DNA of 55,308 nt from the NCBI GenBank assembly GCA_040754315.1, contig JBFMCS010000045.1:1-55308 (forward strand). Direction: 5' to 3'. The notes beneath the pieces were generated by a model. It saw nothing but the letters and a program-made list of their open reading frames with translations. It made no database searches and was not told where the DNA came from. The DNA is from Bacillota bacterium (GTDB taxonomy: Bacteria > Bacillota > Sulfobacillia > DUSP01 > JBFMCS01). Shown in pieces: positions 5,220 through 55,176 of the stretch (positions within the stretch are counted from its first letter, which is position 1; the number at the start of each line of letters is the position of its first letter). Both the position numbers and the translations under genes were made by a program.

Positions 5220-6380
5220 TCAGGCCGGGGGCAGGCCTCCCTGAGACCGCAGGTCCTCAACCCTTGTGTAGTCCATGTCGTAACCGAAGTACCTTGGGCC
5301 GAAGGTATCGATACCCTTAGGTGTCCTCATCCTCTCGTCAGCGGGGATGAGCACCACCGTCCCCCGGTACCCGTACTTCACCACGTCCGTCCTGATGGGT
5401 TCTCCTGTCTCGCTGTCCACTATCACAATGAGGTCAGGAGGAAGGCACAAGACCCTGCCCTCCACACGGAGCACAAGCCACTCATTCTGGAAGTCCACAG
5501 TTGCCTGGTTGCCCCTGCACTCATCAAGTCCCTCCAGGACTATGCGGCCTAGGGAAAACCCCTTACTGGTCTCCGCCCCGAACTCCCGCTGGATGTCCAC
5601 GACCTTGCCTCGAAACGCGGGGTATCCCCGGGTGAGCCGGCATATCTCCGCTATGGGATCAGAGTGTTCCTTGCGACATGCCATGACAGTCCTGCCTATC
5701 TCCCAGGCTACCGAGACTGACCCCAGGATGGCTGTGTCCTTCACCTGGCGGCCAGTCATGGGGTAACCCGCTATCCATGATATTCCGCCGTATGCCATAG
5801 CGACGGTACGCGCCAGGTGCTCCGCGGTAAGGGCGTCCTTGGTGTCTATGATGTTGACGTATCCCTTCTCGTTGGCTGATGCTGTTGGACAGGGCGAAAC
5901 CCCGTTGATGTAGAAGGACGTCATCTGCAGTTCCGGGAAGGCCCTTCCCATCCCGTCTCCGTCCAACACGGGCACCCCCACGGCGCCAGCCACGGCCATG
6001 GGCACAGGGGTGTTCACGCCCCCTGCCTCAGGGGGTATCACTCCCTCCACAGGACGGCCCATGTACCTAGCCAGGCGTTCATAGCACCAGAACAGCTCCT
6101 GGCCGCAGGGGGGCTTCTCAGTGAGAACCAGCGCTGCTCCCAGGCACCCGGCAATGGTGATGAGGGCCTCGTCCGGCACATCTTGCGGCTTCACCATGAC
6201 TATTGGGTGGCCCTGGTCAACCACGTTGTAGGCCCATAGGAGGCCGATTTCGGGATCCCCTCCGCCCCCTGTTGCCAGGATCGAGGCCCCCAGGGTTATC
6301 TCCTCCAACGCCCTCCTGTCGATCCCCTTGTATTCCTTGACGCCCCACTTTGCTAGAATATCCAGGGCGGTCTTCTTCAT
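5220..6380 (-). CDS. DUF917 family protein (S-methyl-thiohydantoin desulfurase-like), copy 1
   Basis: 386 residues, full length for DUF917/S-Me-THD. Family hallmarks are TLGASILATGGGGDPEIG near the N-terminus, a central FPELQMTS, and GEPIRTDVVKYGYRG near the C-terminus. Members sit beside hydantoinase/oxoprolinase genes and are thought to act on hydantoin-like rings; the exact reaction here is unknown. Start: ATG 6380 has GGGGGTG six bases upstream. A GTG at 6407 in the same frame has no site and overlaps the previous gene. It is the last gene of the operon, 19 bases after the M24 gene. A close paralogue lies three genes upstream. Confidence 0.85.
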   Translation of the reverse strand: MKKTALDILAKWGVKEYKGIDRRALEEITLGASILATGGGGDPEIGLLWAYNVVDQGHPIVMVKPQDVPDEALITIAGCLGAALVLTEKPPCGQELFWCYERLARYMGRPVEGVIPPEAGGVNTPVPMAVAGAVGVPVLDGDGMGRAFPELQMTSFYINGVSPCPTASANEKGYVNIIDTKDALTAEHLARTVAMAYGGISWIAGYPMTGRQVKDTAILGSVSVAWEIGRTVMACRKEHSDPIAEICRLTRGYPAFRGKVVDIQREFGAETSKGFSLGRIVLEGLDECRGNQATVDFQNEWLVLRVEGRVLCLPPDLIVIVDSETGEPIRTDVVKYGYRGTVVLIPADERMRTPKGIDTFGPRYFGYDMDYTRVEDLRSQGGLPPA

Positions 6381-9057: not shown

Positions 9058-10650
9058 CTAGATCCGGGCCTTGCCCTTCACGCGGATCCTTATCTTCTCG
9101 CGCTTGCCCGGCATGTAGGCAAAGGGAACCTCCTCGATATCCACCACCGTGACGCTCTCCCGGAGGGCGCCAGCGCTCTCGGCGTTGTCCTTGGCCTTCT
9201 CCGTGACGAAGTCAATGGCCTCGTCCCGGTTCTCCGTCTCAAGGTCCACTACACCCTCGGCATAGGCGCCTATCTCCGCAATGGTGGTGCCGATTGCCCC
9301 GCCAACCTCGAAGTGCAGGGGCGTCAGAACCTCGGTCACACCGTCCAGGTCCACGGGCACGACCAGGGCGCCGCCGCCAATGAATATGGCAGGGACCTTG
9401 CCCGCAGCCGTTTTCATCTGGTCTATGGCAGTCTCCACCGTCTCCTTCACCTGGAGGCGTGCCTCCTCCATGACCTCCCTGGGAACCGCCTTCACCTTGT
9501 CAGGATGCGTGACGTAGTCGGTGTCGAAGATATCCAGCTTCGAGGCGAGCCTCCCGGTACCCACGGCGACATCGTGAACAGTGAGGAGGGGGCCCCCGTA
9601 GGACTTGCCCATCCTCACCAGGTTGTAGCCTACACTCTCAGGGCCGAGGCCCGTAACCTTGCCGCCCTTGGTCTTCACGATAGTCCCGCCACCCAGGGCA
9701 ATGGAAAGAAGGTCAGGACAACGAATGTTTGTCTTGACACCACCAATGTTCACGGTGATTGAGCTCTCCCGGGGAAACCCCTTCACGATGTAGGCCACAT
9801 CAGTGGAGGTGCCACCCACATCCACCACAGCGCCGTCCTCGATGCCCGAGAGGAATACCGCCCCCCGGACGCTGGCCGCTGGACCTGAAGCCACTGTGAA
9901 GATGGGATAGTCCACGGCGTAGTCCGCCGTCATGACACTTCCGTCGTTCTGCACTATGAAAAGCGGGGCATCCACGGACTTCTCCTTCATGGCCGCCCTC
10001 ACCGCGCCCACCGCCCGGCGCATGCAGGTGATGACCGAGGCGTTGAGGATGGTGGAGTTCTCCCTCTCCAGGATGGAAATGGAGGCGATCCTGTGGGACA
10101 TGCTCACGTGAACCTCGTCCCCCAGCTCCTCCTGGACTATGGCGGCCACCCGCTCCTCGTGGTCGGGCTTCATTGGGGAAAAAACCCCGGTTATGGCCAC
10201 CGAGTCAATCCGGCCCTTCATGGCGCGGCAGGCTCCAGCCACCGCCTTCTCGTCCAGGGGTACTATGTCCCGGCCGTCATACTCAGAACCGCCGTGGATC
10301 AGGTGGACATTCTGGATACCGCCGATGGCGTTCTTCAGATCCTCGGGCCACCCGGTAAGGGGCGGGATTGCAGTGGTAGCCGGGAGTGCTAGCCTGAATA
10401 CACCCACATTGTTGAGGCCGCGCCGCTCAATGATGGCATTGGTGGTATGCGTGGTGCCCAGGGACACCATGCCTATACTCCTGGCATCCACCCCGGGGTC
10501 GCTCAGGAGCTTCTCCAGGGCGTTGATTATGCCGGTGGTGACGTCCTCGGTGGTCAGCGTCTTGGTCTTCGCCACCACATCACTGCCGCGCACCACCACC
10601 CCATCGGTAAAGGTGCCACCTACGTCAAAGCCCACTCGGAGATCCTTCAA
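9058..10650 (-). CDS. Hydantoinase/oxoprolinase A-like protein, short form
   Basis: 530 residues with the ATP-binding fold of HyuA: VGFDVGGTFTDG at the N-terminus, SLGTTHTTNAIIERRG, NDGSVM, VVDVGGTSTDVAYI and ALGGGTIVK. It is about 150 residues shorter than the HyuA at 14364-16418 and lacks the C-terminal HyuA domain. The family couples ATP hydrolysis to opening of cyclic amides such as 5-oxoproline or hydantoins, often with a HyuB partner; short forms are usually found with DUF917 proteins, as here. Start: TTG 10650 with GAGAAGGAGG about ten bases upstream. It follows the racemase gene by 45 bases. Confidence 0.88.
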   Translation of the reverse strand: MKDLRVGFDVGGTFTDGVVVRGSDVVAKTKTLTTEDVTTGIINALEKLLSDPGVDARSIGMVSLGTTHTTNAIIERRGLNNVGVFRLALPATTAIPPLTGWPEDLKNAIGGIQNVHLIHGGSEYDGRDIVPLDEKAVAGACRAMKGRIDSVAITGVFSPMKPDHEERVAAIVQEELGDEVHVSMSHRIASISILERENSTILNASVITCMRRAVGAVRAAMKEKSVDAPLFIVQNDGSVMTADYAVDYPIFTVASGPAASVRGAVFLSGIEDGAVVDVGGTSTDVAYIVKGFPRESSITVNIGGVKTNIRCPDLLSIALGGGTIVKTKGGKVTGLGPESVGYNLVRMGKSYGGPLLTVHDVAVGTGRLASKLDIFDTDYVTHPDKVKAVPREVMEEARLQVKETVETAIDQMKTAAGKVPAIFIGGGALVVPVDLDGVTEVLTPLHFEVGGAIGTTIAEIGAYAEGVVDLETENRDEAIDFVTEKAKDNAESAGALRESVTVVDIEEVPFAYMPGKREKIRIRVKGKARI

Positions 10651-10695
10651 CTCGCTTCAACCTCCTTCTCAAACGCTGCTAAGAGGGCACAGAGG

Positions 10696-11469
10696 TTAGT
10701 CCCAGAGGTCTCCGAAGCCGTACTGCCCGCCCAGCCCCCAGGCAGCCAACTCTTCCTTGGGAGGGGTCTCGTACCCATACTTCTTTGAATGCAGCCAGGA
10801 AAAGCGCTGGCCCAGCTCCACCAGGAACTCGGCATACTTGAGCGGAGCCAGGATGGCATCGATCACAGGCACCCCTACGTGTGCCTGGAGCTCCTTATAG
10901 AAGCCGAACTGGATTGTGCACCCGAGTATGATGACCTCCGCCTTGTCCTTTTCCACGGCCTCCTCGGCGGCGGCCATGAGGCGGCGCCTGGTCTCGTTCT
11001 CGTCCCTGTGGAAGTCGTGGACCCCAAGGCCAACGGGTTTGAAGGAGGCCAGCCGGTCCTTGAAACCGTACTTGTACACGTTCTCCTTCATGGCTGGCAC
11101 CCACTTTGTGCGCCCGACTATCACTGAGAACTTATCCCCCAGGGTAGTAGCGATGTGCATGCAAGCCTCGGCGGGGGCCGTCACAACCATCCTATCAGTG
11201 ATCTCCCGGGCCTCTCTCAGCCCAGGGTCGTAGAAGCAGCCAATGACAGCGGCATCATAGCCGTCCTTCTCAGCCCTCTTCACCGCATGGAGCGTATCCA
11301 CCATTACAAGGGCTTCGTAGTAGTGGTACTCCAGGTGCTGGGGGCCCTTTTGCAGAGACACCACATCCACCGTGGTATCCGCCATCTTCTCCTGGTCAAA
11401 GATCTCCTTGATCGGGGCATCGAACAGCGATGTCCCCACCGGATTGATCCAGAGTATCCGCCTTGCCAT
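10696..11469 (-). CDS. Asp/Glu/hydantoin racemase family protein
   Basis: 257 residues. The two catalytic-type cysteines are present, Cys78 in AVIGCFYDPG and Cys184 in ILGCTIQFG, as in cofactor-independent racemases. Such enzymes interconvert D and L forms of aspartate, glutamate or 5-substituted hydantoins; with Hyu genes on both sides, hydantoin or a cyclic amino-acid derivative is the likely substrate. ATG 11469 has TTAGGAGG suitably upstream; an in-frame GTG at 11478 would overlap that site. Its first 74 bases overlap the end of the upstream M24 gene. Confidence 0.87.
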   Translation of the reverse strand: MARRILWINPVGTSLFDAPIKEIFDQEKMADTTVDVVSLQKGPQHLEYHYYEALVMVDTLHAVKRAEKDGYDAAVIGCFYDPGLREAREITDRMVVTAPAEACMHIATTLGDKFSVIVGRTKWVPAMKENVYKYGFKDRLASFKPVGLGVHDFHRDENETRRRLMAAAEEAVEKDKAEVIILGCTIQFGFYKELQAHVGVPVIDAILAPLKYAEFLVELGQRFSWLHSKKYGYETPPKEELAAWGLGGQYGFGDLWD

Positions 11470-12616
11470 CGAGTACACCTCCTAATTGCCAGTTATATGG
11501 GTCACGCTGGTAGGTAGAGAGCAGCCTGCACCCGTCCTGGGTCACCAGGGCCACATCCTCGATCCTGACCCCTCCCATGCCCGGGATGTATACCCCGGGC
11601 TCGATGGCCAGCACCATGCCTTCAGCCAAGCGCATGGACTCCTGGGGGGCAAGGGAGGGCTTCTCGTGCAGCCGGAGCCCGATGCCGTGCCCTGTGCGGT
11701 GGATGAAGTTGGCGCTGTACCCCCGGGCAGACACAACAGCCCTGGCCACGCTGTCCACCTCAGAACAGGGCACCCCTGGTCCTATGTGCTTGAGGGCCTC
11801 CTCCTCGGCCTGGAGCACGGTCTCGTAGATGTCCAGGTAGTAGTGGGAGGGCATGCCCATGACGAAGGTCCTGGTCATGTCGGAGCAGTACCCCTCATAC
11901 ACGGCACCCAGGTCCATCATGACGATGTCGCCCTCCCCGATGACCCTCCGGCTAGACTCCCCGTACACGAGCGCCGTCCGGGGTCCTGAGAGCACCCTCA
12001 CATCAAAGGCGGCGCCTTCAGCCCCGGCCTCCATCATGACCCTGTGGGCGTGGAGGGCCACCTCCAATTCCGTCCGCTGGTGCTCCTTGAGGAACTCGAG
12101 GGACGAGTCCAAAGCCGCCTGGGCAATTTGCACCGCCCGTTCGATTGCGGAAACCTCCTCGGGTTCCTTCACTGTTCTCATCTCACTGAAGAACACGCTG
12201 GTATCCACGAATCTGACGCCAGGCATCACACTCTCAAGGTTTTGCGCCTCCATGAGGCTCAGGCAGTCCACCTCCACCCCCAGCCGGGCTTTCCCCCTTA
12301 CCCCCAGCATGCCTAGGCCCCGGGCCAGCCCCTCGAAGGGGTCCTCCCCGTCCCTGCAAGTGATGATCCTCTCCACTGGGACCACCGCCTGTGCCCTGGC
12401 GAGGTCCAGCTCAGGCACAAAGAGGAAGGGAGGGTAACCTCGGGGTAGGATGACACCGGAGAGCCTTTCGTAGGATCTCCGAGGGAAGGCCGTGAGGTAC
12501 CTCATGTTCTCAGGGCCTTTGACAAACACCGCGTCCAGGTCCTCCCTGGCCATCCAGGCCTGGACCCTCTTGACCCGGAAATCCCTCACGCTACTGTCCC
12601 CTCTCGGGAAAGGCAT
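11396..12616 (-). CDS. M24-family metallohydrolase (Xaa-Pro peptidase/creatinase-like), copy 2
   Basis: 406 residues, N-terminal creatinase-like domain then the pita-bread catalytic domain. Metal ligands are intact: MDLGAVYEGYCSDMTRT (two Asp), RTGHGIGLRLHE (His), AIEPGVY and VRIEDVALV (two Glu). It is only distantly similar to copy 1, so not a recent duplicate. The last about 27 residues, after YNWQLGG, run through the ribosome site and start of the racemase gene, giving an unusual 74-base same-strand overlap. ATG 12616 shares its A with the HyuB stop codon (TGATG). GTG 12589, with GAGAGGGG upstream, is a reasonable alternative start. Confidence 0.85.
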   Translation of the reverse strand: MPFPRGDSSVRDFRVKRVQAWMAREDLDAVFVKGPENMRYLTAFPRRSYERLSGVILPRGYPPFLFVPELDLARAQAVVPVERIITCRDGEDPFEGLARGLGMLGVRGKARLGVEVDCLSLMEAQNLESVMPGVRFVDTSVFFSEMRTVKEPEEVSAIERAVQIAQAALDSSLEFLKEHQRTELEVALHAHRVMMEAGAEGAAFDVRVLSGPRTALVYGESSRRVIGEGDIVMMDLGAVYEGYCSDMTRTFVMGMPSHYYLDIYETVLQAEEEALKHIGPGVPCSEVDSVARAVVSARGYSANFIHRTGHGIGLRLHEKPSLAPQESMRLAEGMVLAIEPGVYIPGMGGVRIEDVALVTQDGCRLLSTYQRDPYNWQLGGVLDGKADTLDQSGGDIAVRCPDQGDL

Positions 12617-14361
12617 CAGGCCTTGCTGGTCATGGCCGCCTTCTGCCTGGCATCCTGTGTGGCCGCCCGGTCCACGGACCCGTCCGCGCCGAGGACCACT
12701 CCATAGACATCCCTGGCCTCTTCCACGCTGATATAGCCGTCCTCCACATCGGCCTTGACCATCTCCTGGTCGCGTTCGAGGGGATTACCGTAGCCGCCGC
12801 CCCCGCCAGTGATGAGTCTCACCAGGTCCCCCTTATTGATGGGATAGCGAGCGAAGGTGGACCCTGTGTAGGGTTCCTCTTCTCCATGCCTGTAGATCTC
12901 CACGCCGTTTCCGGTTCCCGCGCCTCCGCCGTCAACCCCCCAGGGTGGGAAGTCTACCCGGCTCACTATTGTGGTGAGCTCGCCACGGCTGTTCAAGAGG
13001 CGGTAGTCCCTGACCAACCCGTACCCGCCCCGGAACTTACCTGCCCCTGACTTGGGGAGTAACGCATACTGCTCCACCATGATGGGATACTTGGTCTCAG
13101 CCACCTCCACAGGGATGACAAAGGTCTCACCGTCGACGATGGACACCAGGCCGTTCTGGCCGTCACGGTCTATTCCTGCCCCCCAACCCCCTGCCTGGGG
13201 CTCACACAGCACAAAGGGCTCACCAGTGGAGTCGCCGATGCCTCCTAGAATCGTACCGAGGATGCTCAGGAAGTGCCCTGCGGTAATCCTCTCGGGGAGA
13301 ACCGGGGCTAAGGCCTTGAACACCAGGTCCGAAACGAACCCGATGGGCTCCCAGTGACAGGACACCGGGGCAGGCCGTGTAGCCGTGAACACCGTGCCCT
13401 CCGGAGCCACGAACTTGAGGGGGCGGTAGAAACCCTCGTTGGGGTGGGCCTTGGGGTTCATGATGGCGTGGTAGGCCACCCTGGCCGCCGCCAGGGCCCC
13501 CACCCGGGCACAGTTGACAGGTGCAGCCACCTGGCCACCGGAGCCCGTGAGATCAATCGTGAAGTCCTCATCGGTGATGGTCACCTCACACCTGGCGGGT
13601 ATGTGATCGATCCCCCTGGCCATGGTGTCGAAGAAGTCCTCCACGACAAAGGTACCCTTAGGCAGCCGGGCCAGTTCCTGCCGGGCCAGCTGCTCGCCCT
13701 GGTCAAGGATCAGGTTCACGCTGGCCAGCACTGTGTCTTTCCCATACTTCTTGCACAGCTCCACCACACGGCGCTCCCCCGTGCGAAGGGACGCGCACTG
13801 CGCGTACAGGTCCCCAACGGTCATGCTGGGGGTGCGGCAGTTCGCCGCTATCATGTCCCGGACAGCCTCGTTCAGGCGGCCCTCCTCGTATGCCTTTATG
13901 ATGGGGAACTGCAGCCCTTCCTGGTAGATCTCCGTGGAGTCCGTGGTCCAGCTCCCCAGGGCCATACCCCCGATCTCGTTCCAGTGCCCCTTGTTCGCGG
14001 CAAAGGCCACCAGTTCGCCACCTGCGAAGATGGGCATCACCGCGGAAACATCGCAAAGGTGAGTCCCGCTCCCTGTGTAGGGGTCATTGGTGAGTATGAT
14101 GTCCCCTGGCTTGAGCCCCTCAACCCCGAACTTGGCCAGCGCCGATATGACCGAGTATGTCAGGGTGGCCAGGAACCCCGTGACACCGCTGGCCTGCCCT
14201 ATGAGTTGTCCCTTGGCATCCGTAAGGCCGCAGGCACAGTCCATGACCTCGTAGATGATGGTGCTCTGGCTGGTCCTGCCCCAGGCGACGAACATCTCTT
14301 CCGAGGCCGATATCAGTGACTGGGCCACTATCTCACTTGTAAATGGGTCAACCTTGGCCAT
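12616..14361 (-). CDS. hyuB: Hydantoinase B/oxoprolinase B subunit
   Basis: 581 residues, full length for HyuB. Typical blocks are DPFTSEIVAQSL at the N-terminus, NDPYTGSGTHLCDV, a mid region with HWEPIGF, GGWGAGIDRDGQNG, and the C-terminal GGGGGYGNPLERD. HyuB hydrolyses the phosphorylated or activated cyclic amide made by HyuA, completing ATP-dependent ring opening of 5-oxoproline, hydantoin or related compounds. ATG 14361 has GGGGGTG five bases upstream; a GTG at 14367 overlaps that site. The gene starts at the end of hyuA, so the two subunits are translationally coupled. Confidence 0.92.
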   Translation of the reverse strand: MAKVDPFTSEIVAQSLISASEEMFVAWGRTSQSTIIYEVMDCACGLTDAKGQLIGQASGVTGFLATLTYSVISALAKFGVEGLKPGDIILTNDPYTGSGTHLCDVSAVMPIFAGGELVAFAANKGHWNEIGGMALGSWTTDSTEIYQEGLQFPIIKAYEEGRLNEAVRDMIAANCRTPSMTVGDLYAQCASLRTGERRVVELCKKYGKDTVLASVNLILDQGEQLARQELARLPKGTFVVEDFFDTMARGIDHIPARCEVTITDEDFTIDLTGSGGQVAAPVNCARVGALAAARVAYHAIMNPKAHPNEGFYRPLKFVAPEGTVFTATRPAPVSCHWEPIGFVSDLVFKALAPVLPERITAGHFLSILGTILGGIGDSTGEPFVLCEPQAGGWGAGIDRDGQNGLVSIVDGETFVIPVEVAETKYPIMVEQYALLPKSGAGKFRGGYGLVRDYRLLNSRGELTTIVSRVDFPPWGVDGGGAGTGNGVEIYRHGEEEPYTGSTFARYPINKGDLVRLITGGGGGYGNPLERDQEMVKADVEDGYISVEEARDVYGVVLGADGSVDRAATQDARQKAAMTSKA

Positions 14362-14363
14362 TT

Positions 14364-16418
14364 TCACACCCCCGTGGTGAGGACTAGGTCGCCGTAGTCG
14401 TCAACCTCCAGCGCTTGACCGGGGAACACAACAGTAACGGAAGCCCCCTCTTCCACCACGGCGGGCCCTTCCAGAGAGTGTCCTGGACCCAAGAGGTTCC
14501 GGTCGTACACCATAGTCTCAAGACGGCCGCAATCGTCAAAGTCCACGAGCCTCTTACCCCGGGTGGCCTGGTCCAGTCTCCCTGCCGGAGCCATGCGGGC
14601 CAGCTGGGGCTTGGGAACGGTGCCCAGGGCCGTGAGGTGGAAGTTGACGAACTCGGCAGGGGCGCCGTCCAGCTTGAAGGTGTAGTGCAGCTCATGAAGG
14701 TCATCAAAGGATGCCCTGGCGGCGTCCAGGTCAGCGGGGCCCCTGAGCGTGCCGGGTACCGGCGTCTTCACGGCATGTTCCTGTCCCAGGTACCTGACGT
14801 CACCATACCTGCGGAACACTATGCGATCCTCGGACACACCCTGGCCCCTCAGGACCTCGGCAGCCTCCTGCTCCATGGCCTTGAAGATGCTATTGATATC
14901 ATCAATGGCAGCGTGCTCCATAGGGAGGATCCTGGTCTCTATCAAGTCCTGCCTGAGGTCGGTGAGAAGCATCCCCCAGGCGGAGAAGGTGGCGGGTATC
15001 CGAGGTATGATTGTCTTCTTGATCTGCAGTTCCCTGGCAAGGGCCGCAGCGTGAACAGGCCCGCTACCCCCCATGGCCACCATGGCGAACTCCCTGGGGT
15101 CATAACCCCGGCGCAGGGACACCAGCTTGATGGCCGTCATCATGTTGGCATTTGCCAGGCGTATGACGCCCAGGGCAGCATCCTCCAGGGTTATGTCGAA
15201 GTGCCGGGCTATGGTGGCAATAGCATCCCTCGCCTTCTGGGCGTCCAGGGGAAACTCTCCACCCAGGAACCGCTGGGGGTCGATCCTCCCGGCCACCACA
15301 TTGGCGTCGGTAACAGTGGGATCCGTGCCTCCCCGGCCGTAGCAGGCTGGCCCAGGGTCGGCTCCGGCGCTCCTGGGACCCACCTTAAGGGCTCCAACCT
15401 CATCGATCCAGGCAATGCTGCCCCCGCCCGCCCCTATTTCCACGACGTCCACCACGGGCACCTTGATGGGATAGCCCGCAAAGGCTGGTGTCCACTCGAT
15501 CTTGTAGTCGGTGGTCACCCTCACCTCACCCTTGTGGATGAGGGAGGCCTTAGCCGTGGTGCCGCCGCTGTCCAGGGATATTATGTTCTCCTCACCCAGG
15601 ATCTCCCCGAGGGCTGTCGCGCCTATGACGCCCCCCACAGGGCCTGACTCCACGAGGTTGATGGGGGTCTCTTTGGCCCTGGGGAAGGAGGCTGTGCCGC
15701 CGTTGGACTGCATGGCGTGGGGCGCCACCCCCAGGCTCTTCTCCCGCAGGCGGGTGTCCAGGGTATCCAGGTAGCGCTTGGCTGCCGGCTGGACGTAGGC
15801 ATTCAGCACCGCGGTGCTGGTGCGCTCGTACTCGCGCCACTCCTTGATGAGGCTGGAGGAGGTGGTGACGGCGATGCCCGGCAGGTGTTCCCTCAGGATC
15901 TCCTCGCACCTCTTCTCATTCCCGGGATTAGCATAGGAGTGAAGGAAGCACACAGCGATGGCCTCCACCCCGGCATCCCGGCACCTCTTGGCGATACTTG
16001 CGACCTCCGCCTCGGGCAGGGGCCTCAGCATCTTGCCCCTGGCGTTCACCCGCTCGTCGACCTCAAAGCGGAGGGCGCGCCGGACAAAGGGTACCGGCTT
16101 CCTGTAGTAGAGGTTGTAGATGTCAGGGCGGTTCGCCCGCCCGATCTCCAGCACGTCCCTGAAGCCCTTGGTGGTTATCAGGGCGGCCTTGGCCCCCTTC
16201 CTCTCCGTGAGGGCATTGATGACTATTGTCGTGCCGTGAGTGAAGTAGCTGGCTTCATCCAGGGGCAGCCCAGCCTTTTCCAGGACATTGAGCACCCCCA
16301 GGCCGAAGTCAGCCGGAGTGGTGTGGGCCTTCTCTTCCCGGACATTCCCGGTCCTCTCGTCCAGGTATACCAGGTCGGTGAAGGTTCCACCGATGTCTAC
16401 TGCAATTCTGTAGCTCAT
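14364..16418 (-). CDS. hyuA: Hydantoinase A/oxoprolinase A subunit, full-length form
   Basis: 684 residues with all three HyuA regions: N-terminal domain with AVDIGGTFTDLVY and FTHGTTIVINALTERKG, central ATPase part with SLDSGGTTAKASLI and GAGGGSIAWID, then SAGADPGPACYGRGGTDPT and the C-terminal domain ending in EGPAVVEEG and LEVDDYGDLVL. It should activate a cyclic amide with ATP and pass it to HyuB encoded next. ATG 16418 overlaps the stop of the ABC ATPase gene (GAATGAG), so uptake and ring opening are expressed together. Confidence 0.93.
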   Translation of the reverse strand: MSYRIAVDIGGTFTDLVYLDERTGNVREEKAHTTPADFGLGVLNVLEKAGLPLDEASYFTHGTTIVINALTERKGAKAALITTKGFRDVLEIGRANRPDIYNLYYRKPVPFVRRALRFEVDERVNARGKMLRPLPEAEVASIAKRCRDAGVEAIAVCFLHSYANPGNEKRCEEILREHLPGIAVTTSSSLIKEWREYERTSTAVLNAYVQPAAKRYLDTLDTRLREKSLGVAPHAMQSNGGTASFPRAKETPINLVESGPVGGVIGATALGEILGEENIISLDSGGTTAKASLIHKGEVRVTTDYKIEWTPAFAGYPIKVPVVDVVEIGAGGGSIAWIDEVGALKVGPRSAGADPGPACYGRGGTDPTVTDANVVAGRIDPQRFLGGEFPLDAQKARDAIATIARHFDITLEDAALGVIRLANANMMTAIKLVSLRRGYDPREFAMVAMGGSGPVHAAALARELQIKKTIIPRIPATFSAWGMLLTDLRQDLIETRILPMEHAAIDDINSIFKAMEQEAAEVLRGQGVSEDRIVFRRYGDVRYLGQEHAVKTPVPGTLRGPADLDAARASFDDLHELHYTFKLDGAPAEFVNFHLTALGTVPKPQLARMAPAGRLDQATRGKRLVDFDDCGRLETMVYDRNLLGPGHSLEGPAVVEEGASVTVVFPGQALEVDDYGDLVLTTGV

Positions 16419-35827: not shown

Positions 35828-36104
35828 TCTTGTCCCTCCATGCCGTCTTGCTCTCGTAAAGGAACCTGACCACGCAGATGGTGGCGATGAAACTACACAA
35901 GACAAAGGTCAGCGCCACATCCAAGAAGAGACTGTTGCGCATGAAGAAGGCCAGGAGAAGTATTATCACGGTGGTCTTCGAGGTAACGGCTCCCACGGCC
36001 ACCACCCTGTCAGCGGCGGTGGGGCCCACCACGGCCCTGTAGAGCGAGATAAAACAGAGGGCGCCAACACCCGATATGACCAGCGCAACTGTGGCGTCAA
36101 CCAT
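35820..36104 (-). CDS. mrpF: Mrp-type antiporter subunit MrpF
   Basis: 94 residues, three membrane helices. YRAVVGPTAADRVVAVGAVT is the MrpF/MnhF signature (GPTAADRVVA). ATG 36104 is preceded by a G-rich site and overlaps the end of mrpE by eight bases. Confidence 0.9.
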   Translation of the reverse strand: MVDATVALVISGVGALCFISLYRAVVGPTAADRVVAVGAVTSKTTVIILLLAFFMRNSLFLDVALTFVLCSFIATICVVRFLYESKTAWRDKNA

Positions 36105-36642
36105 CCTGCCGTCCCCCCTCGATCCTAAGCATCTCCTCTTCCAGGGACCAGTGGGCGACACCCTCAGCCGCCTCGGCGGTAAGGGCATGGATTATGAACC
36201 TGTCCCCTTCCATCTCCACCGTGAGTGTGCCAGGGGTCAAGGTAATGGAGTTCGCGTAGATGACCCTGCCGAAACGAGTCTTCAGCCTTGTCCTGAGCAC
36301 GATAAAACCCGGCGAGATGGGCAGGCTGGGGTGGAGCACGATGAGGGCCACCTTGATGTTAGCTATCACTACCTCTATAATAAGGTCTATCATGTACCGG
36401 GCAAACTTCCCCATGGTGCGGATGTTGGGCATCATGGCGCCGCTCTCAATAAGGAGATCGCTCCAGAGATAGGAGGTCAGGAGGGAGAGAATTACGCCGG
36501 CAAGGAGGTGCTGGAGATCGAAGGAACCGGATAACAGCATCCAAAATAAAAGAAGCGCCAGGAACACCATCCAAACACCTAGATTCCCGAACCGTTTGAT
36601 CCCCGTCTCCGGTCTTCTCAGGTTGGTCCCGGTAGGCACCAC
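36097..36642 (-). CDS. mrpE: Mrp-type antiporter subunit MrpE
   Basis: 181 residues with two membrane helices near the N-terminus and a soluble C-terminal domain. IEVVIANIKVALIVLHP, FGRVIYANSITLTPGT and FIIHALTAE are typical of MrpE (ANSITLTPGT signature). It is the first gene of the operon, about 60 bases downstream of a strong sigma-A promoter. GTG 36642 is preferred because GAAGGG lies seven bases upstream; GTG 36648 touches that site. Confidence 0.89.
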   Translation of the reverse strand: MVPTGTNLRRPETGIKRFGNLGVWMVFLALLLFWMLLSGSFDLQHLLAGVILSLLTSYLWSDLLIESGAMMPNIRTMGKFARYMIDLIIEVVIANIKVALIVLHPSLPISPGFIVLRTRLKTRFGRVIYANSITLTPGTLTVEMEGDRFIIHALTAEAAEGVAHWSLEEEMLRIEGGRQDG

Positions 36643-36705
36643 CGACACACCCTTCGCAAAGGCCCATTTGCTTCTTTACCTGCGCTAACGCCATAAGCCA
36701 TACCA

Positions 36706-36780: not shown

Positions 36781-37230
36781 CTATCCCAGTACGTAGCGGG
36801 CCCTCACCGGGGCTGGACGGGTTAGGGTTTGCAGCACCGCGCACTGCCCTTGGGCGATCTCCACGGCCTTTGCCACACGCTCTGGAGGGAGACCATCGCC
36901 GCTGGTTAATCCAGCGACAGGGAATTCCGTGAACACCCTGGGGGGTCTAGCCTAGGCGCCTTCAGACCCTTCTGCCTTCACCTCCAGGCTGGCAACGGTA
37001 AGCCCCATCCTTCCTAGGGTCTCAAGGAGCGTCACACCCCAGGAGGCTGCCAAGCCTCCTGGGATCAGGCATCTGGGTCTAGGGCCGTCCCCCGCCAGGG
37101 TTACCTCCAGCCCCGACTCCGCACGCACCCTGAAGGCACCCTCCTCCCACCAGGCCTTGGCCTTCTGTGTGAATACCCCCCAGCCGCAGCTGCCACCCCC
37201 TATTCGTTCTCCCGGTCCCTTACCTTTCAC
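36781..37230 (-). pseudogene. OsmC-family protein gene interrupted by an in-frame TAG
   Basis: The frame from 37230 encodes FTQKAKAWWEEGAFRV, AGDGPRPRCLIPGGLAASWG, VTLLETLGRMGLTVASLEV and stops at TAG (36954-36952). In the same frame translation continues after it as ARPPRVFTEFPVAGL, LPPERVAKAVEIAQGQCAV and LQTLTRPAPVRARYVLG up to TAG at 36781. Together this is an OsmC/Ohr-like protein of about 149 codons, the family's usual length, with both halves recognisable. OsmC proteins reduce organic hydroperoxides through two cysteines; one Cys is in QGQCAV, and the usual N-terminal one (GGLAACW-like) is Ser here. One base change explains the break; sequencing error or readthrough are alternatives. 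Confidence 0.72.
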
Positions 37231-37254: not shown

Positions 37255-38871
37255 CTAGGGTATCTCCCCCAGGACGATGAACTCATCAGACTCGGGGCCC
37301 GGCCTGTAGGCAATGTGGGCCAGGCCGAACCGTTCAGGGGAGAGGGTGAAGCCCTGGCTGTGCCATCCCTCGGCCGAGAGGGGCTCCAGAAAGCCACCCC
37401 AGGCGTCAACCAGCCAGAGGTCAATCCCCTGCTGCCTTTCGAGAAACCACACCACCAGGCGTTCATCATCCACCCATGCAGCCTCACCGATCTCGCCCAG
37501 CCTGGCTGCGGGCTTGCCATCCATCGCCGTCAGGAACGAGATATCCCTGGCCTGGGCTCCCTGGGCCACGTAAACGGAAAGGAGCAGGTAACTGCCGTCT
37601 TGAGAGAAACACACAGGCCTGGCGTAACCCTCCGTAGGGACGCCTCTCACCACTTGGGGAACCCCTCCCAGGCTGAGGACATGCACCTCAGACTGGGGGA
37701 AGTAGCCGCCTGGCATCTGGCCAGCGGTAATGGCGAAGGCAACCTTCCGGCCATCAGGGCTCCAGACTGGGGAGCCTACTATGAGGCCGGAATCGGGCCT
37801 GTAGTAGGAGACCTCTCCTTCCAGCGAGGCCACTGCCAGCCGCTGGCCGAAGGGAAGGTCCATCTGCCCGCCGTTCTCCGGCAAGGCCGTGGGCTCGTCC
37901 ACAACCAGGAAGGCATAGTGCTTCCCCGACGGAGACCACTCAGGGTATATCATGCGGGCGCCAGGTTGAAAAAACCTGGACATCAAGGACCACGAGGTAG
38001 TGTCAACCACCTCCACCGCGCTATCTCCCTGTGACTCGCTGGTCTGGTACAGGAGGTACCTCCCGCCAGGGCACCAGCTGGAATCCAGCCCGGTGTAGGG
38101 GAACTCGTAGGCCGGAACCCGGGGCAGACCCGTGGAGAGTCCCGACTGGAAGTCAATGATGTGAACGTGCCCCGCCTGGTCATCATAGACAACCCCCCGC
38201 TGCCGGTCGGGGGAGACCTTGAAGATGAGGCCGGTCGATACAGGCTCTGGCTCCCCGCCGGGCCTCACATGCCACACCTTGCCGTTTTCAAGGCTCGAAT
38301 ACACCAGCCCCAGGCCATCCGCCAGGGGCTCCACCATGTAGAAGGTGTGTACATCCGTTTCGAACACCACCTCCTGGGTACCATCCGCTCCCACGGATAT
38401 GACGGCCTCGGTTCCCTGGTCTCGTATGATGGCCGCCAGCCTCCCCTCTCGAAGCCACCTTAGGCCTATGACCTGGCCGAATGGCCCGATGGCGCTAGCC
38501 CCGGGGGGCCCTGCGGTGGACGGGTCATCCCCTAGGCTGCCCGTTGTGAAAGACCATGAGATCTCCTGGACCCTGGGGTGGCCGTAGATAACCGTGTAGG
38601 TCGTGTCAGGCTCCCATGACTGGGATGGCTCAAACATGACCTTGTTACCATCAACCCAGAGTCTTCCTGGCATTAACGGGTCAGTCGCAATGAGCCCGGG
38701 TCCATTGTCCAGGGGGAGATCCTCCTCCAGGACCAGCACAATGAAGCTCCTAGTGGACACACCGGTGGAGTCCTCCTCCGGGACCACCGACTCCACACTG
38801 ATGCGCGGGATCTGGGAGCACCCCCCTATGGAGACTATGGCGGCTATGAGTGTCAACGCGACCAGCCTCAT
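37255..38871 (-). CDS. Lipoprotein with Ig-like and TolB-type beta-propeller domains
   Basis: 538 residues. A lipoprotein signal (LTLIAAIVSIGGCSQ) is followed by an SbsA/Big_5-like Ig domain (about 25-125: VPEEDSTGVSTRSFIVLVLE, NKVMFEPSQSWEPDTTYTV, WSFTTG). Then comes a six-bladed WD40/TolB-like propeller with repeated blocks such as YPEWSPSGKHYAF, SPVWSPDGRKVAF and PVCFSQDGSYLLL. It is anchored outside the membrane and probably binds a ligand or another surface protein; no catalytic residues are evident. ATG 38871 has GAAGGGTGAT upstream; a longer frame would lie wholly inside the methyltransferase gene. It is six bases from the methyltransferase stop. Confidence 0.82.
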   Translation of the reverse strand: MRLVALTLIAAIVSIGGCSQIPRISVESVVPEEDSTGVSTRSFIVLVLEEDLPLDNGPGLIATDPLMPGRLWVDGNKVMFEPSQSWEPDTTYTVIYGHPRVQEISWSFTTGSLGDDPSTAGPPGASAIGPFGQVIGLRWLREGRLAAIIRDQGTEAVISVGADGTQEVVFETDVHTFYMVEPLADGLGLVYSSLENGKVWHVRPGGEPEPVSTGLIFKVSPDRQRGVVYDDQAGHVHIIDFQSGLSTGLPRVPAYEFPYTGLDSSWCPGGRYLLYQTSESQGDSAVEVVDTTSWSLMSRFFQPGARMIYPEWSPSGKHYAFLVVDEPTALPENGGQMDLPFGQRLAVASLEGEVSYYRPDSGLIVGSPVWSPDGRKVAFAITAGQMPGGYFPQSEVHVLSLGGVPQVVRGVPTEGYARPVCFSQDGSYLLLSVYVAQGAQARDISFLTAMDGKPAARLGEIGEAAWVDDERLVVWFLERQQGIDLWLVDAWGGFLEPLSAEGWHSQGFTLSPERFGLAHIAYRPGPESDEFIVLGEIP

Positions 38872-38876
38872 GTGAA

Positions 38877-41219
38877 TCACCCTTCTCGCCGGCCAGGGCC
38901 ACTCGCTTGCCTGCAAGCGGCCAGGCTCTCGAAATCCAGACACCAGAGGGCACCAGCCAGCTCGTCCAGGCGCTCCTGGGAGGAACCCCCGGAGGGACCC
39001 GAATGGCATTCCATGGAGAACCCGGCCAACTCCCGGTGAACCTTGCATGACCTGTCGAATGCCGGCACCGCTAGGTGCTCCAGCAAGTGAACGGATACCT
39101 GCGTGCTAACAGTATAGGACGACACAAGGAACCTGGCAGGCGATGAGTTAAGGACCGCCGAGAGGTAGTGGGCCTCTTCCTCGCTGGCCATGACCATCAC
39201 CACCTTGCAGTCAGGCACGCAAGACCTGTAACCCACAAGGGGGTCATCATGGGGCCCCAGGACAGCCGCACCGAAGCCCCCCGTAACATAGGGCCACACG
39301 ACCTTGTATGGCGCCACAGTGTATTCCCCCACGTTATACATGGAGTAGAAGGGTCCTTTGCCCGGGAAGAACCGCCGGTAACCCCTCCTGGCCTCCAGTG
39401 CCGCCCTGAAGATCTCCAGAAACCTGTAGGTCAAGGGAAGGCTGCTCCTGAGATACCCCTCATCCATCCCCATGCGAGTCCTGGGATCCTGGGCCAGGAG
39501 GATGTGACCGGAGGCCCGAGCCCGCCAGCGGCCCACATCCCGCCCCCTCACCAAGGGGTAGATAAGATCCGGCTCAATCCAGCAACGGTGGCGTGCCAGG
39601 GGCTTCCTCCCGGCCCCTGGCATGTTCTCCACGAGGCACCGGTCACCCTCACGGCGAATCAGCCTCAACCAGTAAATGCCGTTGGCTCCCAGGGTGTTGC
39701 ACCCTTCCCTGGCCGAATAGGCAGACCGCCCCAGGATGGCGGCGCAGGCCTCGCGCATCCGGGGGCTCCTGACCATCCACGGGGAAAGGTTATGGGAGGC
39801 ATCCACCGGAAGCGCCTCCATCTCCTCGCTATCTAGCATTGCCCTGGCATCCCGAAGGGGAGCATCCCGGGGGATCCTGCCTCCCTTGAGACGCCATACA
39901 ACGTAGGGAACGGGATATCTCGTCACCTCTCCCTTCTGGGCCTGCACCACAGCAGGCCTGATGGTACAGGACCCAAAGGCTGCAGTGTGCACCAGGTCGT
40001 CAACCCGCAGTATCCCCAGGGGCTCTCCAGACGGTAGCCTGAAGGAACGGAAACCCTCCCCGGCCCCCTTTGATTGGAGGAGGCTCTGGGTTACCACAAA
40101 GGAGATCTTGCCCCCGGTCTCAAGGAACTCCCCCGCTGCCTTCTGCCAGAACAGCATTGCCAGGTCCTTCTTGGCTCCCCCCAGTATCGTGCGGAAGCCC
40201 TTGAGGGTGTACAGCCCATGGTCGCGAAAGAGTTGTCCCATGGCCGCCCTGGATGAATCAGGGAGCCGTTCCCAGTTGATCCACGGGGGGTTCCCCACCA
40301 CAAACCGGAAATCCCTAGGGATGACCCCGGCCCCCTGCAGGAAATCCCCAGGAACAATGTGGGCTTCCCTCCATACCCCAGGACGGGATAGGGCCAAGGC
40401 ACAGTTGAGCCTGGCAGCTTGGGCAGCCACCGGGTCCCTCTCCACACCCCAAGGGGGCAGTGCACCTCGGGTCCTGGAGATCAACCCCACTAGGAAGGCC
40501 CCCGTCCCGCAGGCCACATCCAGGCACCTCCCCTCGACCCCCAGTGAGTCCAGGGCAAGATCCACCACCCACCTTGGAGTGTAGTGCTCACCCCGGCCCT
40601 TCCTGGCCTCCGGCGCCCTTACTGCATCGAACAGGGGAGCGAAGATGTCCTCGGTATCCTGGGGGGCAAGCCAGAAGGTAAGACCCTCCAGAGACCTCGC
40701 CCGCTCCCTGAGGGACCGGCTCAACTCATCTCCCGGAGGGGGCGATTGGGCTTCTCCCTCAACATCCCGGCGGGCACTCTCAGCTAGGGCTGCGACGACT
40801 CGTGACAGGTAGCCATCGGATGCCTCGCCAGGAGCCAAGTGGCCCAGGCATTTCATTGCTGAGGTGTACTGGGGGGATGCAGGTCCAAACAACTCCATGA
40901 CTGCCTGGGAGGAGAGAGGGAGCCTTGATAGTGAGCGAAGCACGGTGAGGGCCAGGTTCCACCCGTCGCTTGAAGCCAGCCAGGTTCCGTTCCACCTGAC
41001 ATCCATGTCGCAAAACACTAGGCTTACGTCGCCTCCGGTCACTTGGGGACAGTCTCGGTCTACACCTAGGAACGCCTTCCCGCGACGGCCCGCCTGTCCC
41101 GTTACCACCATACCCGAGGCGCACGGTTCCGCCCTGAGTCCCCACCGGCTGAAGAACGGGGCAAAAGCCCCCACTACATCGGAAAGAGTCCCTACCGGGC
41201 GGGGCTCAGGCCAGGGCAA
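38877..41219 (-). CDS. Large N6-adenine-specific DNA methyltransferase (type I/IIG-like)
   Basis: 780 residues. Motif X-like GEHYTP (210-215), the AdoMet motif I DVACGTGAF (234-242) and catalytic motif IV NPPW (310-313) identify a gamma-type N6-adenine methyltransferase. After it lies a long C-terminal region (about 430-780) with IEPDLIYPLVRGRDVGRW, typical of the target-recognition part of type IIG and BREX-like enzymes. The N-terminal 200 residues show no PD-(D/E)xK nuclease motif I can recognise, and no restriction or specificity gene is adjacent. It may be a solitary or epigenetic methyltransferase. TTG 41219 has AGGAGGG five bases upstream. Confidence 0.85.
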   Translation of the reverse strand: MPWPEPRPVGTLSDVVGAFAPFFSRWGLRAEPCASGMVVTGQAGRRGKAFLGVDRDCPQVTGGDVSLVFCDMDVRWNGTWLASSDGWNLALTVLRSLSRLPLSSQAVMELFGPASPQYTSAMKCLGHLAPGEASDGYLSRVVAALAESARRDVEGEAQSPPPGDELSRSLRERARSLEGLTFWLAPQDTEDIFAPLFDAVRAPEARKGRGEHYTPRWVVDLALDSLGVEGRCLDVACGTGAFLVGLISRTRGALPPWGVERDPVAAQAARLNCALALSRPGVWREAHIVPGDFLQGAGVIPRDFRFVVGNPPWINWERLPDSSRAAMGQLFRDHGLYTLKGFRTILGGAKKDLAMLFWQKAAGEFLETGGKISFVVTQSLLQSKGAGEGFRSFRLPSGEPLGILRVDDLVHTAAFGSCTIRPAVVQAQKGEVTRYPVPYVVWRLKGGRIPRDAPLRDARAMLDSEEMEALPVDASHNLSPWMVRSPRMREACAAILGRSAYSAREGCNTLGANGIYWLRLIRREGDRCLVENMPGAGRKPLARHRCWIEPDLIYPLVRGRDVGRWRARASGHILLAQDPRTRMGMDEGYLRSSLPLTYRFLEIFRAALEARRGYRRFFPGKGPFYSMYNVGEYTVAPYKVVWPYVTGGFGAAVLGPHDDPLVGYRSCVPDCKVVMVMASEEEAHYLSAVLNSSPARFLVSSYTVSTQVSVHLLEHLAVPAFDRSCKVHRELAGFSMECHSGPSGGSSQERLDELAGALWCLDFESLAACRQASGPGRREG

Positions 41220-42950: not shown

Positions 42951-44423
42951 CTACCTCAAGGGAAGGTAGGTCACTCCGTGACGCCGGGCTACCTGCTTCA
43001 TGGTGTTGTCCAGTGCTCGCTCCACACCCCTGTCCAGGGGTCTTGGCTTGTGGGAGCTCAGGATTTGCTGGACATGCCGGTTCGCCCTCACCAGTGCCTT
43101 CATGCTCCCCGCTTCGTACCATGCCCTGCGATCCTGGCGGTCTATGGGCAGGCCTGGAATCGCCACCTCTTTCCTGAACCACCTCCGGGTGTGCGCGGTG
43201 TTGAGGAAGTCACCGCCAGGACCGATGCCCTTTATCACATCCACCGCCATGGCATCCTCACCCGTCTCGATACCCTTGAGATACCTTAGCACCATCCCAC
43301 AGATTTCGTTGTCGATAACCAGCTTCTCCAGACTCTGGGTGCCTACGAAATCCAGCATCCCAGGGCCGGATATGACGTTGACCCCTGTCATGCCCGCCAG
43401 GAGAGCCCCCATCGCAGATTCCAGCCCAGCCTGCACATCCACCACCTTGGAATCGCTGAGGCAACCGTGTGTGTGCGTCGGGAGCCCTAGGACCTTGCCT
43501 ACCTGGGCAGCGGTGGTGGCCATCAACATGGCTTCCATCGCACACATGGGTGTGGTGCCGTACCGCATATCAAACACCATCGGCCCGCCGCCCCACACCA
43601 CCGGAGCACCCGGGGTCACCGCCTGGGCCAGGGTTAACCCGCTGAGGTTCTCGGCCACGTGGCAGATGACAGTCCCCGCAAGTGTCACCGGGGTGGAGGC
43701 GCCCGCCATGGGCATGGGCAGGAACTCCACAGGTATCCCATAACGCGCCAAATCCATGATGTTCTTGCAGGCTACGTTGGTCCACCTCAGGGGGGAGAAC
43801 GGGCACACATCCATTACCGCCAGGGGCTTTGCCCTGAGTTCCTCGAGGCTGCCCCTCACCGCCACCAGGAGCTCCTTGATATCCTCAATGCCGTTCACCG
43901 TGAAGGCGCCACTGATTATGGGCTTGGTTGAGTTCTTCAAAACCGTGTAGAGCCTGTAGCTGTCTCCTACCTCCTTGGCCACCTCTCCCGCTACTACCGC
44001 AGTGGACTGCAGGGCGATGTTCTCCAGCGCGTCCGTGAGCCTGGCAATATTCGCCAGGTCTTCACCGGAGGAATCCACGGCAAGCCCATCGCTATTGAGG
44101 AAGTGCACAGCCGAGGAGCCGGGGTCGAAGTAGACGTTGTTTCCCTCAAGGAAGGCATGGGGGTTACCCTCCCTGTCGTAGAGGGTTATGGCCTTGGGGG
44201 CCGTGGCCAGCGCCTTCTCGATTGCCTCCGCTGGGAAGAGGGCCACCCTCTGCTGGTGGTCAACGGTACACCCGTAGGCCTCCAGGGCCTCCAGGGCCTC
44301 GGGCGTCTCGTAGAACACGCCGGTTTCCGCCAGTATCTCCATGGCCTTGGCCTTGAACTCGTGTATGTCCTCCCCCGGCAGCATCCGGAGTGGAATGGGA
44401 AGGCTCATCCTGCCCACACTCAT
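42951..44423 (-). CDS. MttB-family (COG5598) methyltransferase, non-pyrrolysine type
   Basis: 490 residues, a TIM-barrel trimethylamine methyltransferase homologue. EILAETGVFYETPEALE, NNVYFDPGSSAVHFLNS, GAFTVNGIEDIKEL and GGDFLNTAHTRRWFRKE are typical of the family. The open frame has no internal TAG, so it lacks the pyrrolysine of true MttB and belongs with the non-Pyl members, several of which demethylate quaternary amines such as glycine betaine. It would transfer a methyl group to the corrinoid protein encoded upstream. ATG 44423 overlaps that gene's stop (ATGA) and has GGGGGTG seven bases upstream. Confidence 0.88.
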   Translation of the reverse strand: MSVGRMSLPIPLRMLPGEDIHEFKAKAMEILAETGVFYETPEALEALEAYGCTVDHQQRVALFPAEAIEKALATAPKAITLYDREGNPHAFLEGNNVYFDPGSSAVHFLNSDGLAVDSSGEDLANIARLTDALENIALQSTAVVAGEVAKEVGDSYRLYTVLKNSTKPIISGAFTVNGIEDIKELLVAVRGSLEELRAKPLAVMDVCPFSPLRWTNVACKNIMDLARYGIPVEFLPMPMAGASTPVTLAGTVICHVAENLSGLTLAQAVTPGAPVVWGGGPMVFDMRYGTTPMCAMEAMLMATTAAQVGKVLGLPTHTHGCLSDSKVVDVQAGLESAMGALLAGMTGVNVISGPGMLDFVGTQSLEKLVIDNEICGMVLRYLKGIETGEDAMAVDVIKGIGPGGDFLNTAHTRRWFRKEVAIPGLPIDRQDRRAWYEAGSMKALVRANRHVQQILSSHKPRPLDRGVERALDNTMKQVARRHGVTYLPLR

Positions 44424-45085
44424 CTGGGAACACCCCCTCGCATATCCCTGGCAAGTCCCTTGGCGATGCTCACCGCCTGGTGGGCGTTGGCAGCATAGGC
44501 ATCGGCCCCGATCTCTTCCGCCCACGCTATGCTCACTGGAGCACCACCCACCATTATGCGGGTCTTGGCCCTGAGGCCTGTCTCTATAATGGCGTGAATG
44601 ACGTTTTTTTGCTCTATCATGGTAGTGGTCAAGAGGGCGCTCATGCCAAGGATGCCCCCTCCGAGGTTCTTCAAGGCATTCACGAAGTCCTCAGCGGATA
44701 CATCCCTGCCCAGGTCGTGAACGCGAAAGCCCGTAGTCTCAAGCATGACGGCAACCAGGTTCTTGCCAAGGTCATGAAGGTCTCCGCTGACAGTGCCGAT
44801 GACGAAATCCCCGAGGGCCCCCACGGTCTTGCCCCCGGCACGGATGGCCGGCTCCAGAATAGCCATGGCCTCCTTGAAGATCTGGGCAGATAACATCACC
44901 TCGGGCAGGAACATCTCCCCCCGGTTCCATCTCTTCCCGACATCCTCCATCCCGGCGCCCAAGCCCTGTGAAGCCATTAAAGGGAGGTCCAGCCTGCGTT
45001 CCACAGCAGTGCGGGCTGCCTTCAAAACCCGTTCCTGGTCTCCCTGAACCACACCCTCCTTGAGGCTCCTCAAGACGTCCCTCAT
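44420..45085 (-). CDS. Methyltransferase cognate corrinoid protein (MttC/MtbC-like)
   Basis: 221 residues. A helical cap domain (1-85, with RWNRGEMFLPEVMLSAQIF) precedes the B12-binding Rossmann domain with GDLHDLGKN (axial His104), a conserved MSALLTTTM and VGGAPVS. It shuttles methyl groups from the MttB-type enzyme to a second methyltransferase, usually one that methylates tetrahydrofolate. Neither that methyltransferase nor a RamA-like reductive activator is in the window. ATG 45085 has GGAGGGGG six bases upstream. Confidence 0.9.
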   Translation of the reverse strand: MRDVLRSLKEGVVQGDQERVLKAARTAVERRLDLPLMASQGLGAGMEDVGKRWNRGEMFLPEVMLSAQIFKEAMAILEPAIRAGGKTVGALGDFVIGTVSGDLHDLGKNLVAVMLETTGFRVHDLGRDVSAEDFVNALKNLGGGILGMSALLTTTMIEQKNVIHAIIETGLRAKTRIMVGGAPVSIAWAEEIGADAYAANAHQAVSIAKGLARDMRGGVPR

Positions 45086-54020: not shown

Positions 54021-54458
54021 GTGAAGCGCCTCTACCGCTCGAGGAGAGAAAGGATGGTGGCCGGAGTCTGTGGCGGCGTAGCCCAGTACTTCAATGTGGA
54101 CGTGGTTATCGTCCGTCTAGCCTGGGTGATCTTTGCCCTGGCCGGGGGGCCGGGCATCATTGCCTACATCATCGCCTGGATCATCGTGCCAGAGGAGCCA
54201 GCGGCACCCGGGACCCATGTCTCCGTGGAGGGCGATACCCACGCTGAACCGGCGGATATACCCTCCAAGAACAAGTCCCAGAAAGCCCTGGGCTACATCC
54301 TCGTAGCCCTGGGCCTTTACATTCTTCTTCGCGCCGTGTTTCCCATGCCCTGGAGTCTATCCTGGGGCTTCTCCCTCGGGCAGTGGTGGCCTGTCATCCT
54401 CATTGCCCTGGGTGTTGCCATGGTACTGGGCTTCTTTGATCGGGGGCGGTCCGCTTGA
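54021..54458 (+). CDS. PspC-domain membrane protein
   Basis: 145 residues. KRLYRSRRERMVAGVCGGVAQYF and the membrane segment after it (VIVRLAWVIFALAGGPGIIA) are the PspC domain. A charged linker and two further membrane helices (LGYILVALGLYILL; WPVILIALGVAMVLG) resemble the LiaI/DUF5668 hairpin. Such proteins sense or respond to envelope stress. GTG 54021 has AAGGGAG about eight bases upstream. Its stop overlaps the start of the LiaF-like gene, so the two form an envelope-stress unit. Confidence 0.86.
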   Translation: MKRLYRSRRERMVAGVCGGVAQYFNVDVVIVRLAWVIFALAGGPGIIAYIIAWIIVPEEPAAPGTHVSVEGDTHAEPADIPSKNKSQKALGYILVALGLYILLRAVFPMPWSLSWGFSLGQWWPVILIALGVAMVLGFFDRGRSA

Positions 54459-55176
54459 GACTGGCAAGGCTCTTTAACGGGCTCCTCTTCATAGCCGTGG
54501 GCATCCTTCTCCTCGCCAATACAATGGGGGTTCTCCCTTGGACGCTGTGGCGAAACCTCCTGTCCCTCTGGCCCGTCTTCATCATAGGGCTGGGACTGCG
54601 TATCGCCACGCGGAAGGAGGCCTTCGTTCCCCTGGCTCTCCTGGTAATGGTGGTATGGGCTAGCCTTGCGCCGGCGGCTCCCGGGGGGTTCTTCCCTTTC
54701 GGGTGCATGTGGACGCTGCCGGAGTCCACCTTCTCCGGCGAGGTTCCTATGCCGGCGGATGAAGCCAGGGTCGTCTTGAGGATGGGAGCCAGCAGGATGG
54801 ACCTGCGCGGCGGGGCAAGAGACCTCCTCGAGGCCGAAGCGCGCTAGCGGGGCCAGGTGCCTAGACTCACCAGCATCACGACCGGAGGGAAACCCGGTAT
54901 AACGCTGGATCACTCCGGGGGCGGCGAGTGGAAGGTGCGCCTCAATGAGGACGTGGTCCTAGACATTTCGGTCCAGGGAGGCGCCTCCTCGCTGGAATGG
55001 ACCTCAGGAACCTGCAGGTTAGAAACCTTGAGGTGGACTCGGCAGCCTCATCTGTGGAGCTGAGGCTTGGGGACCGCCTGGACTGGCCTAGCGTCTCCAT
55101 AGACGCCAAGGTATCCTCGGTCAGGATCAGCCTCCCACAGGATAGCGGCGTAAGGGTTGTTAACTGCTGGCGATAG
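54455..55176 (+). pseudogene. LiaF-like (DUF5668 plus toast-rack type) gene with in-frame TAG and frameshift
   Basis: TTG 54455 opens a frame with three or four membrane segments (FNGLLFIAVGILLLANTMGV, LWPVFIIGLGLRI), then RVVLRMGASRMDLRGGA and a TAG at 54845. The same frame resumes at once: VPRLTSITTGGKPGITLDHS, WKVRLNEDVVLDISVQGGAS. Near 54998 the homology moves to another frame (DLRNLQVRNLEVDSAASSVE, then SVRISLPQDSGVRVVN) and ends at TAG 55174-55176. The repeated GASS-type strands match the C-terminal domain of LiaF-like envelope-stress proteins. One nonsense change and one single-base indel are needed to restore it. It is co-encoded with PspC and adjoins the IS607-like element. Confidence 0.72.

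Follow-up and report, generated by a model that had tools for sequence, protein, structure and literature searches.

Peroxidases of the OsmC/Ohr family have two redox cysteines, the first of which we take to be the peroxidatic one. The locus described here lies in a 55,308-nucleotide stretch of a Bacillota genome (the window, meaning that whole stretch) and resembles this family (PF02566) in its homology over profile positions 3-98 and in keeping the second cysteine. It differs from the family in that serine replaces the first cysteine, a TAG interrupts the frame, the putative loop around that TAG carries a two-codon insertion, and no start codon lies at the usual place. The methylamine methyltransferases MtbB and MttB of the same genome likewise contain one in-frame TAG behind which homology goes on. 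In contrast to the OsmC frame, their TAG is covered by the models TIGR02368 and TIGR02369, and they show strong coding signal or a strong match, whereas the TAG of OsmC falls in an apparent loop and is matched by nothing in the homologues. A further comparison is with bacterial pseudogenes that carry one nonsense codon: in these, as at this locus, a lone stop breaks a frame that can otherwise be read, and the sequence looks relaxed. Here, however, a cognate suppressor tRNA exists, and the stop may leak. For bacterial genes whose only damage is a single in-frame stop, it has been argued that many are functional (PMC7918605).

An OsmC-like frame interrupted by one TAG

An earlier note on this DNA had described an OsmC gene split by a single TAG without any indel. 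Its coordinates were right; the gene is on the minus strand, and the PF02566 match spans the TAG. The features of the locus are as follows.

36781..37230, minus strand: OsmC-like frame of 92 codons, TAG, 56 codons and a TAG stop (translation, PF02566, codon score)
36952..36954, minus strand: in-frame TAG of the OsmC frame, in a probable loop (translation and alignment)
36781..36783, minus strand: end stop of the OsmC frame, likewise TAG (translation)
37255..39048, minus strand: gene upstream of the OsmC frame, with PD40 and Big_5 matches (profile matches)
36097..36648, minus strand: gene downstream of the OsmC frame, Na+/H+ antiporter subunit MnhE (PF01899, Pfam match)

In translation, the reading frame (37230..36784) starts at GTG, and its sole interruption is the TAG at 36954-36952, with no frameshift and no deletion; the plus strand at 36781-37230 holds no OsmC frame. 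The PF02566 match, with 35.8 bits and E 1.1e-8, runs across the TAG and takes in profile positions 3-98 of 100. Scored singly, the halves reached 16.2 bits and 17.1 bits, both under the cut-off of 27.5 bits. The frame thus belongs to the OsmC fold above cut-off only if the TAG is read through. Since each half is below cut-off alone and one match spans both, the two halves represent one protein, beyond chance, and a chance meeting of two unrelated frames is ruled out. Codon scores were negative in the other five frames over both halves, leaving the OsmC frame the best of six. The upstream PD40 gene ends in a TAG (37257-37255, minus strand) that lies in frame with OsmC, 8 codons before the GTG, and three TAGs (this stop, the interruption and the OsmC stop) are aligned in a single frame. 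A search of the surroundings of the OsmC gene gave no consensus promoter or terminator.

Coding signal and conserved residues

The codon score of the OsmC frame was 9.1 over 148 codons; among 665 equally sized pieces taken from called genes, only 6 scored as low. By half, the scores were 7.3 (92 codons) and 1.8 (56 codons), compared to means of 21.3 and 12.9, so neither side of the TAG shows the strong coding signal expected of a pyrrolysine protein. The GC fraction at the second codon position was 0.584, and none of the 1141 gene pieces used for comparison reached this value. Such odd composition can reflect recent acquisition, as an alternative to decay.

We aligned the frame with 20 homologues from relatives and with the second OsmC of the same genome, a paralogue (21 sequences in all; 20 of 29 relative loci were aligned, and the 9 left out had been extracted in the wrong frame). 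The nearest solved structure by sequence was PDB 1vla, hydroperoxide resistance protein OsmC. The first cysteine, present in 21 of 21 homologues, is serine here; the second cysteine is present, and the pair of redox cysteines typical of the peroxidase family is therefore incomplete. The frame also has proline at a leucine position kept in 18/21 homologues and glycine at a tyrosine position kept in 20/21. It retains 15 of 25 well-conserved positions, no fewer than some divergent homologues that are intact (the lowest of these retains 12/25). The claim that conserved features are intact on both sides of the TAG holds for these 15 positions, which include the second cysteine, but not for the first cysteine. 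Compared with the 21 aligned homologues, the stretch bearing the TAG has two extra codons; it would form a variable surface loop outside the active site. At the position where the homologues start, the frame has no ATG, GTG or TTG; the sole in-frame one lies 18 codons upstream.

No OsmC orthologue was found in 60 relatives, all from outside this genus and family (best identity, 37%), or among 398 sampled genomes of the phylum (identities, 27-36%), and none of the other OsmC matches listed from these two sets contains an in-frame stop. Scans of a collection of genome contigs with the N-terminal half of OsmC and with PylS likewise turned up no relative. The homologues have no TAG at the corresponding site, where they show a two-residue gap. 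PylS was found in two of the 60 relatives: G030 (same class), whose OsmC is uninterrupted, and G001 (same order), which has no OsmC. G002, of the same order, has a homologue of the upstream gene and, behind it, a frame that looks nitrilase-like to us; no OsmC lies between the two. These comparisons are best read as indicating that the OsmC frame is a divergent copy without an orthologue in the relatives searched.

A complete pyrrolysine system in the genome

A search for pyl genes, which the earlier note had proposed, was carried out in the window's own genome (G000; a draft of 2.92 Mb in 65 contigs) and returned both a complete cassette and TAG-interrupted methyltransferases. On contig 43, a match to the PylS model (345 bits) is adjoined by tRNA-Pyl with anticodon CUA and lies beside PylB (455.7 bits), PylC (381.3 bits), PylD (248.4 bits) and PylSn (117 bits). 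The bacterial set (tRNA-Pyl, PylSc, PylSn, PylB, PylC and PylD) is therefore complete, and the organism has the pylT, pylS and PylBCD pathway expected where a pyrrolysine-containing protein is made.

L035 (G000:C43:50000-69999), 9118-15015: pyl cassette pylT-pylSc-pylB-pylC-pylD-pylSn, then TAG-interrupted mtbB
42951..44525 of the window, minus strand: MttB-family gene without in-frame TAG (PF06253, 304 bits)

At least four methylamine methyltransferases in the genome are interrupted by TAG (two MtbB and two MttB); the second TAG-interrupted dimethylamine methyltransferase lies in L094 at 6545 (PF09505, 588.5 bits). The MttB family is large in this genome, and many of its methyltransferases have unknown substrates. 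There are 30 PF06253 matches genome-wide (26 near full length and 4 partial), only 2 of which contain a single in-frame TAG; these scored 632.5 and 757.8 bits with the pyrrolysine-type trimethylamine methyltransferase model. One MttB gene, on contig 4, contains two TGA codons and was considered as a decayed copy; this was rejected because both TGAs precede the likely start. The MttB-family gene of the window had been offered as a hint of TAG suppression; it does not serve as one, since it has no TAG and scored 422.7 bits with the pyrrolysine-type model TIGR02369, under the cut-off of 525. In all likelihood, the organism decodes TAG as pyrrolysine. RNA folding behind the TAG was uninformative (z of -1.75 for OsmC, -0.27 for MtbB and -1.46 for a second TAG-interrupted gene of the window, described below).

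TAG as a stop codon

We called genes with a simple codon-based caller in the window and 41 further stretches (825,903 bases; 698 genes). TGA ended 336 genes, TAG 256 and TAA 106, in agreement with the observation of the earlier note that many genes end normally with TAG. Release factor RF1 is intact (prfA, 526.8 bits). Genome-wide reassignment of TAG is ruled out by these two results.

First codon scans across all frames were noisy because antisense frames score; a test of gene ends and Pfam scans of TAG sites were then used. Wide readthrough would make the sequence behind TAG stops more coding than that behind other stops. At the same threshold, a coding-like extension was seen behind 8 of 254 TAG, 9 of 333 TGA and 4 of 106 TAA stops, showing no such excess; this test covers 693 of the 698 genes, the other 5 extending beyond the end of their stretch, and is blind where a gene is called directly behind the TAG, as for the MtbB of L035. 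For the Pfam scan, 20 TAG sites were picked by hand, with preference for sites flanked on either side by the strongest coding signal. At 17 sites the domains were one-sided or belonged to different proteins, 2 sites had no match, and the one domain-spanned TAG in this 0.83 Mb sample was that of the dimethylamine methyltransferase MtbB. A short frame in L067 (G000:C4:1-20000), minus strand, near 14925, scores well for codon usage before and after a TAG and has no Pfam match.

Under the codon usage of this genome, 58-61% of one-base nonsense changes yield TAG, so the presence of TAG rather than another stop tells little. In pyrrolysine-using archaea amber is rare as a stop, and bacteria cope through regulation, according to a published account (PMC3941956); the present genome fits the bacterial pattern given there.

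Other interrupted genes

The earlier note also pointed to a second in-frame TAG in the window, at 54845. This TAG is real, on the plus strand, but the gene also appears to shift frame.

54455..55176, plus strand: LiaF-like gene interrupted by TAG at 54845-54847 and apparently by a frame change near 54996

Matches in the gene from 54455 are to LiaF-like membrane domains and, weakly (20.2 bits, below cut-off), to a toast-rack domain that extends over the TAG. Past ~54996, the sequence seems to continue in another frame; in our reading the shifted part resembles a toast-rack repeat, and Pfam gave no match on that part alone. Because the gene is seemingly broken twice, it gives no support to TAG decoding. 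On another contig, an arginase-family gene (L103, G000:C22:1-20000, minus strand, near 6200) has conserved sequence that, by reading of the translation, drops out of the frame and returns to it around a TAG, a sign of decay or base errors elsewhere in the genome.

Discussion

The locus is probably a degenerating OsmC gene that has lost its first cysteine and gained a nonsense TAG, which is perhaps read through incidentally. The TAG, the lost cysteine, the missing usual start and the low codon score would be in keeping with a pseudogene, and OsmC function may have been lost. Set against decay are the absence of any frameshift, a frame that outscores the other five in each half, and the 15 of 25 conserved positions retained. 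Ordinary translation would halt at the TAG and leave a 92-residue fragment without the second half of the OsmC fold. Pyrrolysine insertion at this TAG is possible because the organism encodes tRNA-Pyl(CUA), and some ribosomes may insert it when the system is on, giving a full-length by-product; incidental readthrough of this kind is plausible. The earlier note had left the break as recent, a sequencing error or read through. The positive pyl search keeps readthrough in view, but the OsmC frame itself points to decay.

Two other explanations were considered. The TAG could be a base or assembly error, with a true sense codon in an intact OsmC gene. The genome is a draft in 65 contigs, the LiaF-like gene (54455-55176) seems to shift frame inside conserved domains as errors would also produce, and the arginase-family gene on another contig appears, from its translation, to shift likewise. 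However, the lost cysteine, the weak coding signal and the missing start are independent of any one base, and we regard an error at this codon as unlikely. Alternatively, OsmC could be functional with its TAG decoded as pyrrolysine in a surface loop, full length being reached only if tRNA-Pyl is charged, e.g., during growth on methylamines. The complete pyl cassette and the TAG-interrupted methyltransferases favor this explanation, as do the single frame shared by both halves, the homology on either side of the TAG and a loop position at which any residue might be tolerated. It is nevertheless somewhat less likely than a base error. Against it stand the lost first cysteine and weak coding signal, the frequent use of TAG as a stop in this genome, the lack of a TAG in every listed homologue, and the restriction of domain-spanned TAGs among the 20 scanned sites to MtbB. 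Selenocysteine at this site was rejected, since selenocysteine uses TGA.

More specifically, we consider it improbable that OsmC is a pyrrolysine protein distinct from the methylamine methyltransferases and reaches its full length only while the pyrrolysine system is active. If it were, a redox-type protein would be tied to methylamine growth, and an OsmC made at full length would be a pyrrolysine protein unconnected to methyl transfer. Pyrrolysine gene candidates beyond the methyltransferases require experimental proof, as stressed in an earlier study (PMC3639795). The papers listed by a literature search on pyrrolysine and OsmC all deal, by title and abstract, with selenoproteins.

A probably degenerating OsmC gene in such a genome bears on how pyrrolysine candidates are recognized. 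In bacteria that decode TAG as pyrrolysine and yet use it as a common stop, any gene broken by TAG resembles a pyrrolysine candidate. The OsmC case shows which criteria can sort them: the coding signal, the conserved active-site residues and a counterpart of the TAG in homologues.
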